From the NCBI RefSeq assembly GCF_022385335.1, contig NZ_CP092431.1, positions 4,340,001-4,404,000 on the forward strand: a DNA stretch of 64,000 nucleotides, read 5' to 3'. Both the position numbers and the translations under genes were made by a program. The notes beneath the pieces are model-generated. The model had not been told where the DNA came from, searched no databases, and was given only the letters and a program-made list of their open reading frames with translations. Source of the stretch: Streptomyces deccanensis (lineage in GTDB: Bacteria; Actinomycetota; Actinomycetes; Streptomycetales; Streptomycetaceae). Below are positions 54,864 to 59,963 of this stretch, one piece after another; within the stretch, counting starts at the first letter, position 1, and the number at the start of each line of letters is the position of its first letter.

Positions 54864-54936
54864 GCCTTCGTAGCTCAGGGGATAGAGCACGGCTCTCCTA
54901 AAGCCGGTGTCGCAGGTTCGAATCCTGCCGGGGGCA
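54864..54936 (+). tRNA. tRNA-Arg (anticodon CCT)
   Basis: 73-nt cloverleaf. Acceptor GCCTTCG/CGGGGGC, D-arm GCTC/GAGC, anticodon stem CGGCT/AGCCG with loop CTCCTAA, T-arm with GGTTCGAATCC. Discriminator A at 54936. A promoter -10 TACACT is at 54844. tRNA 3' ends are common integration sites, and this one is partly duplicated at 56520-56562. Confidence 0.96.
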
Positions 54937-55101
54937 CAGCGCATGACGCCGCTCTCCTGGGGTTTCTTCCCAGGGAGCGTTCTGTTCGGCCTCGGACTCG
55001 TTGTCCGGGGCCGTTTGCGTGAGTGGAAGGACATCCCCGAGAGCGACCCTGGTTCGGCCGGCAGGCCGTACGCTCCCGGCCTGACAGGTCTCCCGGCGTG
55101 C

Positions 55102-55405: not shown

Positions 55406-56161
55406 CTACCTGGTTGGCATGGGCGCGGCCGGGCGGACCGCGGTGAAGTCCTGGGTCTCGTCGCGGGTGGCGGAGAGCAACAGGAGCCACTCGTCGCAGC
55501 CCTGCCATGGAGAGAGGTCGCCGCCGCCTCCGCGCACCACCCGCGGTCCGTCGCCGGTGCGGGGGCGGGCGTCGGCCGGCGCGTCCTTGTAGTGCGGGAT
55601 CCACACGTCCGCGCAGATCTCGTTCGCCGATCCCATCGCCGCCAGCCCGAAGGCGTTCTCAGCCGCCGCGGTGCGCTCGTCGTCGGCGAAGTCGTCGAGT
55701 ATGTCGTTCTCGTCCGGCTTCCCGTCCCCGCGGAAGGTCAGAGTGGTCGTCCCTGCCCGGGCCGCGTACTCCCACTCCGCCTCGCTGGGCAGCCGGAAGG
55801 GCAACACCCCGAGCAGGTCGTCCAGGTCGTCCTCGAAGCGGGCCGTGTTCGAGTCCGCTTCGGCGAAGCTGTCCTCGTACTCGGGCAGCCAGTGCCGTGC
55901 TTGCGCCACCGTGAGCGGATGTCGGGCGATCAAGAACGGCTCGACCCGCACTTCTCGTACCGGCCGGGCCTGGACGGCACCGGCGAAGAACGCTTCGAGG
56001 TCGTCATCGGCCTCGTCGGACTGCTCAATGGCACGCACCGCGTCCAGTTCCGCGTCCGACAGGCCCATCAGGAACGTCCCACCGGGGACAGCCCGGAAGA
56101 CCACTCCGGACGGGGTGTGCCGCCACGCCGGTCGACCGGCCACGATCTCTTGAGCCCACAT
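55406..56161 (-). CDS. FGE/SUMF1-domain protein (formylglycine-generating-like)
   Basis: 251 residues with the SUMF1 fold motifs: VFRAVPGGTFLMGLSDAE, PFLIARHPLTVAQARHWL, RLPSEAEWEYAARAGTTTLT and FGLAAMGSANEICADVWIPH. The C-terminus is RVVRGGGGDLSPWQGCDEWL. True sulfatase-activating enzymes need two copper-binding cysteines near the end; here only C in EICAD and WQGCDEW are candidates, with spacing unlike the classical one. It may have another role (EgtB/PvdO-like folds are diverse). ATG at 56161; lies inside the island. Confidence 0.8.
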   Translation of the reverse strand: MWAQEIVAGRPAWRHTPSGVVFRAVPGGTFLMGLSDAELDAVRAIEQSDEADDDLEAFFAGAVQARPVREVRVEPFLIARHPLTVAQARHWLPEYEDSFAEADSNTARFEDDLDDLLGVLPFRLPSEAEWEYAARAGTTTLTFRGDGKPDENDILDDFADDERTAAAENAFGLAAMGSANEICADVWIPHYKDAPADARPRTGDGPRVVRGGGGDLSPWQGCDEWLLLLSATRDETQDFTAVRPAAPMPTR

Positions 56162-56224: not shown

Positions 56225-56506
56225 TCAGTACGGCCGCGGAATCCCGTGGTCGCTCAACGCTGCCTCGTACCGCGCGAGCAGAGCGTCCAGGTTCGCCAGA
56301 AGGAGGCCGGCGACGTCCCGGGCTTCGTCCACGTCGCCTCGCTCGCATGCCTCCGCCACCTCGGCCACGTCGCTGCGGAGGATGCGAAGAGAGTCGCCCT
56401 GCACCAGGACCCCGGGGAACCGTCTGCCGGGCAGGCGCACCACGGCGTCGTTGCCACCATCTGTGAACAGCTCGGCCTCAATACGCTCCGCCTCAATGCG
56501 CTCCAT
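56225..56506 (-). CDS. Small conserved hypothetical protein (DUF6959-like)
   Basis: 93 residues from the ATG at 56506, starting MERIEAERIEAELFTDGGND with a repeated RIEAE. The rest reads VVRLPGRRFPGVLVQGDSLR and then a helical acidic tail (DVAEVAEACERGDVDEARDV). I recall similar Streptomyces proteins as DUF6959; weak identification. Its start codon is only 25 bp from the second tRNA 3'-end copy. No catalytic motif visible. Confidence 0.7.
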   Translation of the reverse strand: MERIEAERIEAELFTDGGNDAVVRLPGRRFPGVLVQGDSLRILRSDVAEVAEACERGDVDEARDVAGLLLANLDALLARYEAALSDHGIPRPY

Positions 56507-56678
56507 CGGGCCATTCAACCCCCTGAGGCAGGTGGCGCGGGTTCGCATCCTGCCGGGGGCACGGTTGGCATGGTGGGTCAGCGGGGTGGCGGCCCCGGGC
56601 AATGCGCACGGGGCCGCTGCCCTGATCGGCTGAGTCAGGTGCCGGGAGTACGGGCGACACGTCGAACCGGTGTGCGGT

Positions 56679-57701
56679 TCAGTAGCGCTCGGTCTCCATG
56701 AAGCCCGCGTCCCCGTTGTCGTCCGCGCCGAACGCGTCCGCCGCGGTGGTCGGGTCGAACCCGGGCGGGCTGTCCTTGAGGGCCAGGCCCATGCCGGCCA
56801 GCTTCGCCTTGACCTCGTCGATCGACTTCGCACCGAAGTTGCGGATGTCGAGCAGGTCCGCCTCGGAACGCGCCAGAAGCTCACCCACGAAGTGGACGCC
56901 CTCACGCTTGAGGCAGTTGTAGGAGCGGACCGTGAGCTCCAGCTCCTCGATCGGCAGCGCCAGGTCGGCGGCGAGGGCGGCGTCCGTGGGGGACGGGCCC
57001 ATGTCGATGCCCTCGGCGTCGACGTTCAGCTCGCGGGCGAGACCGAACAGCTCGACCAGCGTCTTACCGGCCGACGCCATGGCGTCACGCGGACGCATCG
57101 CCTGCTTGGTCTCGACGTCGACGATCAGCTTGTCGAAGTCGGTGCGCTGCTCGACACGCGTGGCCTCGACCTTGTACGTGACCTTCAGCACCGGCGAGTA
57201 GATCGAGTCGACCGGGATACGCCCGATCTCCTGACCGACCTGCTTGTTCTGCACGGCGGAGACATAACCGCGGCCACGCTCGACCGTCAGCTCCATCTCC
57301 AGCTTGCCCTTGCCGTTGAGCGTGGCCAGGACCAGGTCGGGGTTGTGCACCTCGACACCGGCCGGCGGCGCGATGTCGGCGGCGGTGACCAGACCCGGAC
57401 CCTGCTTGCGCAGGTACATCACGACCGGCTCGTCGTGCTCCGAGGAGACGACCAGCTGCTTGATGTTGAGGATCAGGTCGGTGACGTCCTCCTTGACACC
57501 CGGCACGGTGGTGAACTCGTGCAGGACACCGTCGACGCGGATGCTGGTGACAGCCGCACCGGGGATCGACGACAGGAGCGTACGACGCAGGGAGTTGCCG
57601 AGGGTGTAGCCGAAGCCCGGCTCCAGCGGCTCGATCACGAACCGGGAGCGGAACTCGTCGACGACCTCTTCGGTCAACGAGGGACGCTGAGCGATCAGCA
57701 C
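56679..57701 (-). CDS. rpoA: DNA-directed RNA polymerase alpha subunit, stand-alone copy
   Basis: Full-length 340-residue alpha subunit. The N-terminal assembly domain ([38 protein letters not shown]) and C-terminal domain ([40 protein letters not shown]) are intact, including the Arg/Asn/Cys/Gly/Lys/Ser set that contacts UP-element DNA. GTG at 57701 with GGAGG upstream. Actinobacterial rpoA normally sits between rpsD and rplQ; here neither is present. Upstream is a 760-bp spacer, downstream the tRNA-Arg island. Compared with the Streptomyces RpoA I remember, residues 271 (Phe, usually Ser) and 276 (Leu, usually Val) and a few in the tail differ. It is probably a second alpha gene, possibly altering promoter or activator response. 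Confidence 0.95.
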
Positions 57702-57764
57702 GAGGTATTGCCTCCAATGGTTCGGCGCCCGCTATGTGACGCCGTGTACACCAAACGTAAGGGT

Positions 57765-57790
57765 GGTTCGGCCTACCACGAGGCCGAACC
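57765..57790. promoter_or_regulatory. Perfect dyad upstream of stand-alone rpoA
   Basis: 9-bp arms GGTTCGGCC/GGCCGAACC with an 8-bp centre, 64 bp upstream of the rpoA start. It could be an operator or, in RNA, a leader hairpin controlling this copy. Confidence 0.6.
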
Positions 57791-57924
57791 GCCCCTCTGT
57801 ATCGGGGCCGGGCCTCCGAGACCGGGCCGACGCACGCCGCCGGTACTGCCTCGGATGACTCGGATGTGGAAACGGGCGTATGCGAAGCACATAGGCGCCC
57901 GGTGCCGGACGTTCCCGATGCTCC

Positions 57925-57954
57925 GGGTGCTTCAGGGTGCTTCAGGGTGCTTCA
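57925..57954. repeat. 10-bp tandem repeat, three units
   Basis: GGGTGCTTCA three times in a row, followed by a diverged GGGTCTTTCG. Confidence 0.85.
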
Positions 57955-58413
57955 GGGTCTTTCGGATGGTGGGCGCATATGTGCTCAACGCCACCGCTCC
58001 CAGAAGGTACGGCATGGAGGGCAAACCGTCGGTCCGCGCGGGCAACGCCCAGGGCGACCGACGCCCCGTACGGGGCCTCGGCAGGGATGTGACCTTCGTC
58101 GCGAGGGTGGAGTCTCGGCGCGTTCGGCACGGTGCGATCCGGCGGCGACGGTGGCGGTGGCGCGAGTCCCTTCGGCGGAGGTCACGGGGGTCGGGGGGAA
58201 GCGCACGACAGGAAACGACGGTCCCCCGGAGGGCAATATCTGTGTTTGCGACATGAGAAATAGGGTGCGGGGCGCGGTGAGTATTCCTCGAATTTCAAGC
58301 GGGGTGAAATCATTGATCGCGCACGGTCGGTCGCACCGTGCTACTGTCGATCTCAGTTGCAGGTGTGGTTGCCAGAAGGTTCATTTCCGACGGGGTAATC
58401 ATCACGGCGACAC

Positions 58414-58436
58414 GGAATTCGCACAGGGCGAATTCC
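58414..58436 (+). promoter_or_regulatory. Leader hairpin of the cold-shock gene
   Basis: GGAATTCGC-ACAGG-GCGAATTCC, a perfect 9-bp stem ending 13 bp before the GAAGGAG ribosome site. A second dyad GCACGGT-N7-ACCGTGC is at 58321-58341. Cold-shock mRNAs typically have long, temperature-responsive leaders, so these may be control elements. Confidence 0.6.
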
Positions 58437-58463
58437 TGACACCGTCTCCGAAGGAGAAAAAAC

Positions 58464-58667
58464 ATGGCTACTGGCACCGTGAAGTGGTTCAACGCGGAAA
58501 AGGGCTTCGGCTTCATCGAGCAGGACGGCGGCGGCGCCGACGTCTTCGCCCACTACTCGAACATCGCCACCCAGGGCTTCCGTGAGCTGCTGGAAGGCCA
58601 GAAGGTGTCCTTCGACATCGCGCAGGGCCAGAAGGGCCCGACGGCCGAGAACATCGTTCCCGCCTGA
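58464..58667 (+). CDS. Cold-shock protein (CspA family)
   Basis: 67 residues, one cold-shock domain. RNP1 is GFGFIEQ in [14 protein letters not shown], and RNP2 is DVFAHYS. It binds single-stranded RNA/DNA and melts secondary structure. Start ATG with GAAGGAG at 58449-58455. Followed by a textbook terminator with a T-run. Streptomyces have several such proteins (SC 7.0-type). Confidence 0.97.
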
Positions 58668-58692
58668 CACCCGCGCAAGACGCGTACTTCCC

Positions 58693-58729
58693 AGCTGGGG
58701 CCCGCACCTTTGAGGTGCGGGCCCCAGCT
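58693..58729 (+). terminator. Intrinsic terminator of the cold-shock gene
   Basis: A 17-bp perfect stem AGCTGGGGCCCGCACCT with a 3-nt loop, followed by CGTTGTTTTTC. Confidence 0.97.
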
Positions 58730-59554
58730 CGTTGTTTTTCCGGGCGCAGCACACATCGTCTTTGAGATCGGTCTCGCGAGTCCCGGTCCACTCATCCGCT
58801 GCGGGAATTTCCGACTCTGCGGAAACGAGTCTTTCGATCAGGGAGTCAGTACGGCAGACACGCGGGCTTGACGTCCATCCGGCCAGGCGAATCCGTTGGC
58901 CGGCTCACGGAAGGAGTAGCTGCCGCCATTGACGCGGCAGCCCTCCTCGGTCGCGCTCCAGCCCGCCGGACCGCAGGCAACGGCAGCAGCAGCGGGTCCG
59001 GGCATCGACGGTGCTGCCGCCCGGGAGGCCGTTGTCCGCTGCGTACCCTCGTCCGTGGCCACCGGAGACCTCCCGCTCCCGCGCGGCAAAATCTACTCTT
59101 GCCAGAGTAGACATTGGCTCCCGGCATGGTTAGTCTTCTTCTCGTTGACACGGTCGAGCGAGACCCGGCAGACACGAACTGGCGGGTAGCAGTAGGAGTG
59201 ATTTCGCAGGTCGGTGCGGTTCTGGAGTCCCGAAGCCATGGTGTTCGCAGGACGGTGACGGGGCTGAGAGCCGCACTGGGCAGCCCGCAGGACGAGGGGC
59301 TGCTGAAGAGCATCACCGAGCAGTACCGCAGTTCCCGCTCAGCAAGAGGTCAAGAGAAAGGACGGAGGAGCAGACGCCATCAGGATCGCCCGGCCGGGAA
59401 GCTCTCGGTCCGGGTACCGCGCAAGACCCCGGAATGGATGGTGGTCCCCGGTCACGCAGCCGCGATCCCCGCACCCCTGCCCCAGTCGGGCCGGGTAGCG
59501 GAAACAGAAGGTCGGCAGAGCACGAGTGCCGACAGATGGTGTTTCATTTCCTTC
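58730..59554. other. Spacer with weak ORFs between cold-shock gene and HTH gene
   Basis: About 825 bp without a firm gene. A rightward frame from TTG 59114 or ATG 59126 (MVSLLLVDTVERDPADTNWR, then [20 protein letters not shown]) has atypical codon use with many T-ending codons early on, and resembles no family I know. It stays open until 59611, through a terminator-like hairpin, so at most its first 80-100 codons could be real. A leftward frame at 58838-59089 (CRVNGGSYSFREPANGFAW) could be a decayed secreted protein. The segment may be transferred or decayed DNA. Confidence 0.35.
59092..59111. promoter_or_regulatory. Perfect palindromic operator candidate
   Basis: TCTACTCT-TGCC-AGAGTAGA, 8-bp perfect arms, immediately before the weak frame at 59114. 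It looks like a repressor site of a small dimeric HTH protein. No regulator gene is clearly paired with it. Confidence 0.55.
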
Positions 59555-59586
59555 GGGGCCCTGGTGCCGTACGGCGCCAGGGCCCC
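59555..59586. terminator. Strong hairpin before the HTH gene
   Basis: GGGGCCCTGGTGCCG-TA-CGGCGCCAGGGCCCC, a 15-bp stem with one U-G pair, ending 26 bp before the start codon at 59613. Likely terminator of upstream transcription or a leader structure of the next gene. Confidence 0.7.
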
Positions 59587-59612
59587 TCGACGCGTTGCAA
59601 CAACGAGGTGAC

Positions 59613-59963
59613 ATGGCAGCAGATACCCCACTGAGTAATCGTCTGGAAGACGACGACTACCCCGCGTACACCATGGGCCGGGCCGCCGAGATGCTCGGCA
59701 CCACGCCGGCCTTCCTCCGAGCCATCGGTGAGGCTCGTCTGATCACTCCGCTGCGCTCGGAGGGCGGACATCGCCGGTACTCCCGCTACCAACTGCGGAT
59801 CGCCGCTCGCGCCCGCGAGCTCGTCGACCGGGGAACCCCGATCGAGGCCGCGTGCCGCATCATCATCCTCGAGGACCAGCTCGAGGAGGCTCAGCGCATC
59901 AACGCCGAGTACCGTCGGGTCGCGAGCGAAGCGTCCGAGAGTTCGGGCCCCGCATCGAGCTGA
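59613..59963 (+). CDS. Small MerR-like helix-turn-helix regulator
   Basis: 116 residues. MerR-type DNA-binding domain: YPAYTMGRAAEMLGTTPAFL, ITPLRSEGGHRRYSRYQLRI, followed by a short helical arm (DRGTPIEAACRIIILEDQLE) and a polar tail. No effector domain. It is the kind of small regulator I recall next to cold-shock genes in Streptomyces, similar in size to BldC-like proteins but longer. ATG at 59613 with GAGG upstream. Target unknown. Confidence 0.85.
   Translation: MAADTPLSNRLEDDDYPAYTMGRAAEMLGTTPAFLRAIGEARLITPLRSEGGHRRYSRYQLRIAARARELVDRGTPIEAACRIIILEDQLEEAQRINAEYRRVASEASESSGPASS

Follow-up and report, generated by a model that had tools for sequence, protein, structure and literature searches.

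A putative accessory RNA polymerase alpha subunit gene in Streptomyces deccanensis and its recurrent relatives in Streptomycetaceae

Introduction

The RNA polymerase alpha subunit gene, rpoA, is a textbook single-copy gene and phylogenetic marker. Among actinomycetes, the gene of another subunit, rpoB, is duplicated in Nonomuraea. In Francisella, two alphas (alpha1 and alpha2) carry substitutions in their dimer and beta/beta' interfaces, and the heterodimer is the form with efficient assembly, according to the available sections of PMC3294249. The same sections, in print in 2011, record two rpoA genes in S. avermitilis MA-4680, listed among 1055 genomes, and call this duplication fairly recent (PMC3294249). 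In addition, rpoA has been placed among the conserved genes of 929 Streptomyces genomes (available portion of PMC13118837). In the open-licence literature, judged mostly by titles and the openings of abstracts, no study of extra rpoA copies in Streptomyces was found. Here, we analyze a stand-alone rpoA gene of S. deccanensis and compare it with secondary rpoA genes of related genomes and plasmids.

Results

Three rpoA genes in the S. deccanensis genome

The window, i.e. the whole stretch of DNA that was analyzed, comprises 64 kb (bases 4340001-4404000 of a one-contig 10.10-Mb genome) and contains the following gene, given in window positions:

56679-57701, minus strand: rpoA2, putative accessory RNA polymerase alpha gene (GTG start at 57701, stop ending at 56679, 340 amino acids)
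Domain layout of RpoA2: NTD about 1-226, linker about 227-245, CTD about 246-310, acidic tail

Its product scores 654 bits against the NCBIfam model NF003514 (cut-off 434), also exceeds the curated cut-off of TIGR02027, and contains the Pfam dimerisation, insert and C-terminal domains, with NTD, insert domain and CTD all full-length. The initial annotation had described a complete, stand-alone alpha of 340 residues, and the minus-strand frame is indeed intact and has no rpsK or rplQ nearby; neither gene occurs anywhere within the 64-kb window. The absence of these two neighbours stands, but rpsD, which had been counted among the missing ones, does not adjoin rpoA even at the housekeeping site. 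A structure predicted from five close sequences (mean pLDDT 31.7) was unusable.

A genome search for the second alpha gene that had been supposed to exist recovered both a housekeeping rpoA in the ribosomal operon and a third copy elsewhere, giving three rpoA genes in this genome:

C1:6320833-6321852: copy B, housekeeping rpoA, in the order rpsM-rpsK-rpoA-rplQ, 97% identical to the window copy
C1:5597129-5598100 (L005:8130-9101): copy C, third rpoA, 323 amino acids, 91% identical

The neighbours of copy B, recognised by their translations, we take to be rpsM, rpsK and rplQ. The other core subunit genes are single, with three pieces matching the rpoB model that share one frame and one rpoC match in the genome. 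The window copy differs from copy B by 10 non-synonymous codons (including the GTG start) and 15 synonymous ones. All nine resulting substitutions lie in 227-340, and residues 2-226 are identical. The differences from Streptomyces RpoA named in the initial annotation, namely F271, L276 and several tail residues, were found again when the same genome's housekeeping copy was used as the reference, together with V227 and V269 (five tail residues differ). Because other rpoA genes exist and the aligned window and housekeeping copies are not identical, neither of the two trivial outcomes allowed for in advance, a genome with this rpoA only or a pair of identical copies, applies here. Copy C lacks four linker residues, carries E273, L278 and H284, and has a different tail; relative to copy B it is identical in 116-226 and differs in 1-115, linker, CTD and tail. 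Relatives with similar leaders were observed at L065 and L116.

Distribution of secondary rpoA genes

At E 1e-50, 388 of the 392 genomes of the genus matched RpoA, and 78 of them did so more than once (a visual count of the tabulated matches, at most five candidates being scored per genome). After setting aside 14 of the 78 with weak or split best matches, extra rpoA copies remained in 64 of 392 Streptomyces genomes (16%). A second search of the 64, with copy C as the query, gave at least two matches in each; those of G142 and G279 were partly fragments, and these two genomes were excluded from the alignment. The comparison set therefore drew on 62 of the 64 genomes and comprised 68 secondary copies, the window copy and copy C among them, along with 62 housekeeping copies. 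Every housekeeping copy starts with ATG (62/62) and has rpsK and rplQ in its locus (62/62). Among secondary copies, 54 of 68 start with GTG, and none has rpsK or rplQ as a neighbour (0/68) or an internal stop (0/68). Nor were broken frames present in the 11 plasmid genes or in 48 further named genes, 33 of which are not among the 68. The GTG-start secondary rpoA class is defined in the present analysis, and the window copy shares its GTG start, leader pattern, non-ribosomal site and intact frame.

In a family search of 150 genomes, 14 of the 112 that belong to other genera gave two or more matches, nine of the 14 with a best match below 1e-200. In a class search of 394 genomes, 8 of the 354 from outside Streptomyces did so, two of the eight with a best match below 1e-180. 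From these counts, the additional alpha seems to be mainly a trait of Streptomycetaceae in the sampled genomes. The flanking DNA is variable: at a threshold of 1 kb of shared DNA, 42 of the 68 copies stand alone and the others form 11 groups with two or three members each, and the window copy groups with L077 (genome G099) through 1,050 bp of shared DNA. In the class search, G570 and G621 had two rpoA matches each; both genomes belong to the same other actinobacterial family (code f14).

Leader and upstream elements

Immediately upstream of rpoA2 lie the following elements:

57702-57749, minus strand: rpoA-type leader, with Shine-Dalgarno GGAGG at 57711-57715
57724-57743, minus strand: leader hairpin GGCGUC-ACAUAGCG-GGCGCC; it recurs in housekeeping rpoA leaders, where both arms have changes
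57765-57790, minus strand: longer inverted repeat GGTTCGGCC...GGCCGAACC that precedes the leader and resembles the hairpin following rpsK at the housekeeping locus

Since the duplicate carries an rpoA-type leader, its sequence suggests autonomous expression. The exact leader-plus-start pattern is present in 49 of the 54 GTG copies, including the window copy, with four close variants and one copy (L157) that has another leader. In a collection of 84,980 species genomes, the leader-plus-GTG pattern was found in 83 stretches; the listing names 80 of them, 78 under Streptomyces titles and the other 2 as 'Actinobacteria bacterium OV320'. Of these 83 loci, 11 had no rpoA match (the pattern lies near the end of the stretch examined) and 35 had no complete gene; one of the 48 complete genes has a misplaced start (L220).

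An upstream GTAYCSKT box accompanies 59 of 62 housekeeping and 44 of 53 GTG leaders but none of the 14 others. The window leader is without it and has TTACGTTT at that place. By a strict criterion, an inverted repeat of the longer kind adjoins the box in 7 of 53 GTG leaders versus 46 of 62 housekeeping ones. Moreover, a 7-bp hairpin just 5' of the Shine-Dalgarno sequence is common to housekeeping and secondary leaders (e.g. L004:7786-7833). In 47 hand-picked leaders (32 of 62 housekeeping, 11 of 54 GTG and 4 of 11 plasmid; 36 distinct), 97.6% of cells pair, compared with 38-51% in slid controls, and changes on both sides occur in 4 of 7 pairs, figures that related rows inflate; further pair types in these leaders were not above shuffles (370 of 500). 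The hairpin might be a regulatory RNA or an operator. An Rfam scan of 56400-58700 gave three matches; each scores under its gathering threshold and lies outside the leader hairpin. A consensus promoter scan of the same stretch was negative.

Neighbourhood of rpoA2

The surroundings of the gene contain the following features:

54864-54937, plus strand: tRNA-Arg (CCT), its 3' part repeated at 56522-56562
56522-56562, plus strand: 41-nt copy (85%) of the tRNA-Arg 3' part, att-like remnant, 116 nt beyond the rpoA2 stop
58464-58667, plus strand: cold-shock protein gene, 67 amino acids, divergent from rpoA2
59622-59963, plus strand: MerR-family regulator gene (putative start; the ORF opens at 59526)

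With both a tRNA-Arg and a partial 3' copy of it near rpoA2, the earlier description of this site as a tRNA-Arg island remnant is apt, and the divergent cold-shock gene that it mentioned is in place. The tRNA and the repeat found do not enclose rpoA2, which lies 116 nt outside this repeat. The 1.6-kb stretch between tRNA-Arg and repeat holds an FGE-sulfatase-domain gene (55406-56161, minus strand). Across the 68 secondary loci, 10 tRNAs were found in nine, about twice a typical genome average, which makes an unconvincing association. A tandem 10-nt repeat occurs at 57922-57961, between rpoA2 and the cold-shock gene. Antisense to the latter, a match to the Rfam terC RNA (58603-58649, minus strand; 30.6 of 39.9 bits, below the gathering score) is probably due to chance.

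The MerR gene and conserved DNA upstream of it (59057-59963) are about 71-81% identical over parts to DNA that lies near rpoA on linear plasmids of NBC_01240 (L285) and NBC_00724 (L286). A linkage between MerR genes and rpoA2 was discarded: it recurs at 6 other loci, yet the MerR family is present in 355 of 392 genomes. Another candidate partner encodes a 73-aa protein resembling the CarD/TRCF RNA-polymerase-interacting domain (22.9 bits, cut-off 23). It was found in 30 of 140 loci, 27 times divergently and about 150-430 nt from rpoA2 (some sites are represented twice); loci with the divergent gene upstream of rpoA2 include L076, L078, L102, L105 and L190. This linkage was also rejected, with the gene occurring in 248 of 392 genomes and, in S. 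deccanensis, at C1:4979924, away from rpoA2.

Uneven divergence along the gene and probable gene conversion

The window copy and its own housekeeping gene differ at 5 of 678 bases in codons 1-226 and at 25 of 342 in codons 227-340 (Fisher p 1.7e-8). The contrast is also seen at third positions (4 of 226 versus 14 of 114, p 1e-4). For this pair dS is 0.023 in 2-226 and 0.207 in 246-310, the means for between-species housekeeping pairs being 0.224 and 0.337, respectively. Over all 68 secondary copies, the nearest of all sequences in codons 1-226 is the own housekeeping gene for 41 and another genome's secondary copy for 13, and in codons 246-340 these numbers become 5 and 42. For 26 of the 68, the own housekeeping gene is not the nearest housekeeping NTD. 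Changes between housekeeping and secondary labels number 48 on the NTD tree versus 16 on the CTD tree (raw counts without a shuffled baseline), and on the NTD tree the window copy and its own housekeeping gene are sisters with support 97. The longest identical run reached p<0.01 in 51 of 68 own pairs, and also in 29 of 150 housekeeping-housekeeping and 30 of 147 secondary-other-housekeeping controls (median run 236 for own pairs versus 92 and 86 in the two control sets); this test is unspecific. In the CTD the window copy is at a distance of 0.0645 from another genome's secondary copy, 0.0702 from the nearest housekeeping gene and 0.0842 from its own. On the CTD tree (342 columns) it falls in no supported group, its nearest sequence by tree path being another genome's housekeeping gene, and an AU test, from 342 columns only, did not reject the window CTD as sister to its own housekeeping gene (p 0.29). 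For this one pair, a recent duplication with faster 3' change is thus formally possible. We read these patterns as an NTD that is repeatedly homogenised by gene conversion and a CTD and tail that drift under weaker selection; as for its direction, we infer conversion of the secondary copy by the housekeeping gene.

The reading that we prefer, at a probability of about 0.55, is that the window gene is an accessory alpha (rpoA2) of a recurrent Streptomycetaceae family, whose NTD is matched to the host by conversion and whose altered CTD would shift the favoured activators or promoters. The NTD dimerises and binds beta and beta'; conversion from the housekeeping gene would keep it interchangeable with its host counterpart, so that RpoA2 could enter the host RNA polymerase, either as alpha1-alpha2 or as alpha2-alpha2. 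The changed loop before CTD helix 2, helix 2 itself and the tail would shift activator or promoter preference, and rpoA2 would be expressed from its own promoter and leader.

Constraint on the CTD

In 246-310, dN/dS is 0.12 between GTG copies and their own housekeeping genes and 0.005 between housekeeping genes, which indicates a CTD that is changed yet constrained; judged from these ratios, the constraint on the secondary CTD is weaker but real. The DNA-contact residues had been said to be kept, and they are, as are those that contact SARP. Residues E252, R259, N262, C263, K265, R266, R287, G290, K292, S293 and E296 are unchanged in 68 of 68. Altogether, 15 NTD, DNA- and activator-contact positions were checked outside the changed ones, and all are kept in 68 of 68 save E255, which is D in 18 of the 68. 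Among the changed positions, V269 recurs in 54 of 68 secondary copies, L276 in 30 and F271 in one; among the 54 GTG copies, V269 recurs in 48, L276 in 27 and G307 in 28.

The CTD changes of the window copy are conservative. Residues 269, 271 and 276 presumably map to helix 2 and the loop that precedes it. Helix positions were derived from the available part of PMC10936776 combined with E. coli numbering. In the AfsR SARP-alphaCTD complex, the interface residues include E252, R259, K265, R266, R287 and K292, and the SARP protomers are contacted by alphaCTD helix 2 and its flanking loops (PMC10936776, same part). With the contact residues kept and the changes in or near helix 2, activator-specific effects of the window CTD are possible and a wholesale loss of activation by RpoA2 is unlikely. 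The distinct polymerase suggested in the initial annotation is something that we only infer, the known contact residues being unchanged.

These data also bear on the strongest alternative, which is somewhat improbable in our estimation: a dosage or back-up role, with RpoA2 functionally equal to RpoA, the extra alpha harmless or useful, and the CTD drift near-neutral. An identity of 97% with conserved contact residues, an NTD nearly identical to that of the own housekeeping gene, and the restriction of extra copies to 64 of 392 genomes would all suit such a role. However, near-neutral drift accords poorly with 68 of 68 intact frames, a CTD that is still constrained (dN/dS about 0.12), and the recurrent substitutions V269, L276 and G307 in GTG copies.

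Plasmid relatives and chromosomal position

RpoA matches were found in 87 plasmid records, of which 21 are named Streptomyces; identity is at least 80% in 23 of the 87 and below 60% in 64. Of 11 Streptomyces plasmid rpoA genes fetched, 10 start with ATG behind a related but different leader and one with GTG, and the window gene is accordingly unlike most of them in start codon and leader class. The neighbours and typing of these 11 include a single-strand-binding protein, a terminal protein, relaxases and transposases, and one protein accession is common to plasmids of three strains. On chromosomes, 20 of 40 secondary copies are located in the outer 30%, compared with 5 of 37 for the housekeeping gene, with the proviso that an assembly may begin elsewhere than at a chromosome terminus. 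The window copy lies centrally, at about 4.4 of 10.1 Mb. In genome G254, secondary rpoA genes with shared flanks lie near both chromosome ends (L104 and L162), as terminal inverted repeats would give.

An extension of the preferred reading, possible and clearly more tentative, is that of a mobile plug-in alpha: elements or chromosome arms would carry rpoA2, each host would overwrite its NTD by conversion so that it fits the resident polymerase, and the freer CTD would yield mixed polymerases with a shifted activator response. A different and rather unlikely explanation holds that the subunit serves the element, biasing host RNA polymerase toward element genes or evading a host or phage factor that targets the host alpha. 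The 21 Streptomyces plasmid records, the plasmid neighbours and typing just listed, and the excess of secondary copies in the outer 30% fit such a role. It is opposed by the central position of the window copy, by the 1.6-kb tRNA-Arg remnant that lies beside rather than around rpoA2, and by the ATG start and separate class of 10 of the 11 fetched plasmid genes. The 20 phage-record matches are all below 60% identity and none is named as a Streptomyces phage, and a phage origin was rejected.

A recent duplication heading for decay is very improbable. It would explain an NTD almost identical to that of the housekeeping copy and agrees with the S. avermitilis duplication being called fairly recent in the available sections of PMC3294249. 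Decay is hard to reconcile with the lack of internal stops in secondary, further named and plasmid genes, with the leader-plus-GTG pattern in 83 stretches, and with synonymous divergence that is very uneven along the gene. Finally, a relocated housekeeping gene, which the stand-alone position might have suggested, is refuted by the operon copy at C1:6320833-6321852.

Discussion

The window gene is truly an additional alpha gene, and the family to which it belongs recurs and has relatives on plasmids; the specialisation of RpoA2 is plausible but unproven. If functional, a second or third alpha in about one-sixth of sampled Streptomyces could make the core enzyme of antibiotic producers heterogeneous. 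A family with a conserved NTD and a drifting CTD could also account for the recent look of such duplications, and the apparent recency of rpoA duplication may accordingly be an artefact of NTD conversion. Caution is advisable when rpoA is used as a marker, as it is not safely single-copy in Streptomycetaceae. The family also amounts to a natural experiment on the role of the alpha CTD.

Comparison with known systems

The S. coelicolor alpha known from solved structures (7vpd plus 11 other entries, among which 7x75 is named S. coelicolor in the available part of PMC10936776) has the same length as the window RpoA. At 227, 269, 271 and 276, as well as in the tail, the solved chain agrees with the housekeeping copy; one further difference from the window copy is at position 56, with V in the window copy and I in the solved chain. 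As in Nonomuraea, an actinomycete here has an extra RNA polymerase subunit gene, but the subunit differs, rpoB being single in S. deccanensis. The second rpoA of S. avermitilis resembles the window copy in lying outside the ribosomal operon of a Streptomyces and probably represents the same phenomenon; the available sections of that account (PMC3294249) are without the distribution in Streptomyces, the leader, the plasmids and the conversion treated here. As in Francisella, two non-identical alphas occur in one genome after a lineage-specific duplication. Unlike the Francisella pair with its diverged contact surfaces, RpoA2 is identical to the housekeeping alpha in residues 2-226 and differs in the CTD, so that free mixing with the host alpha would be expected.
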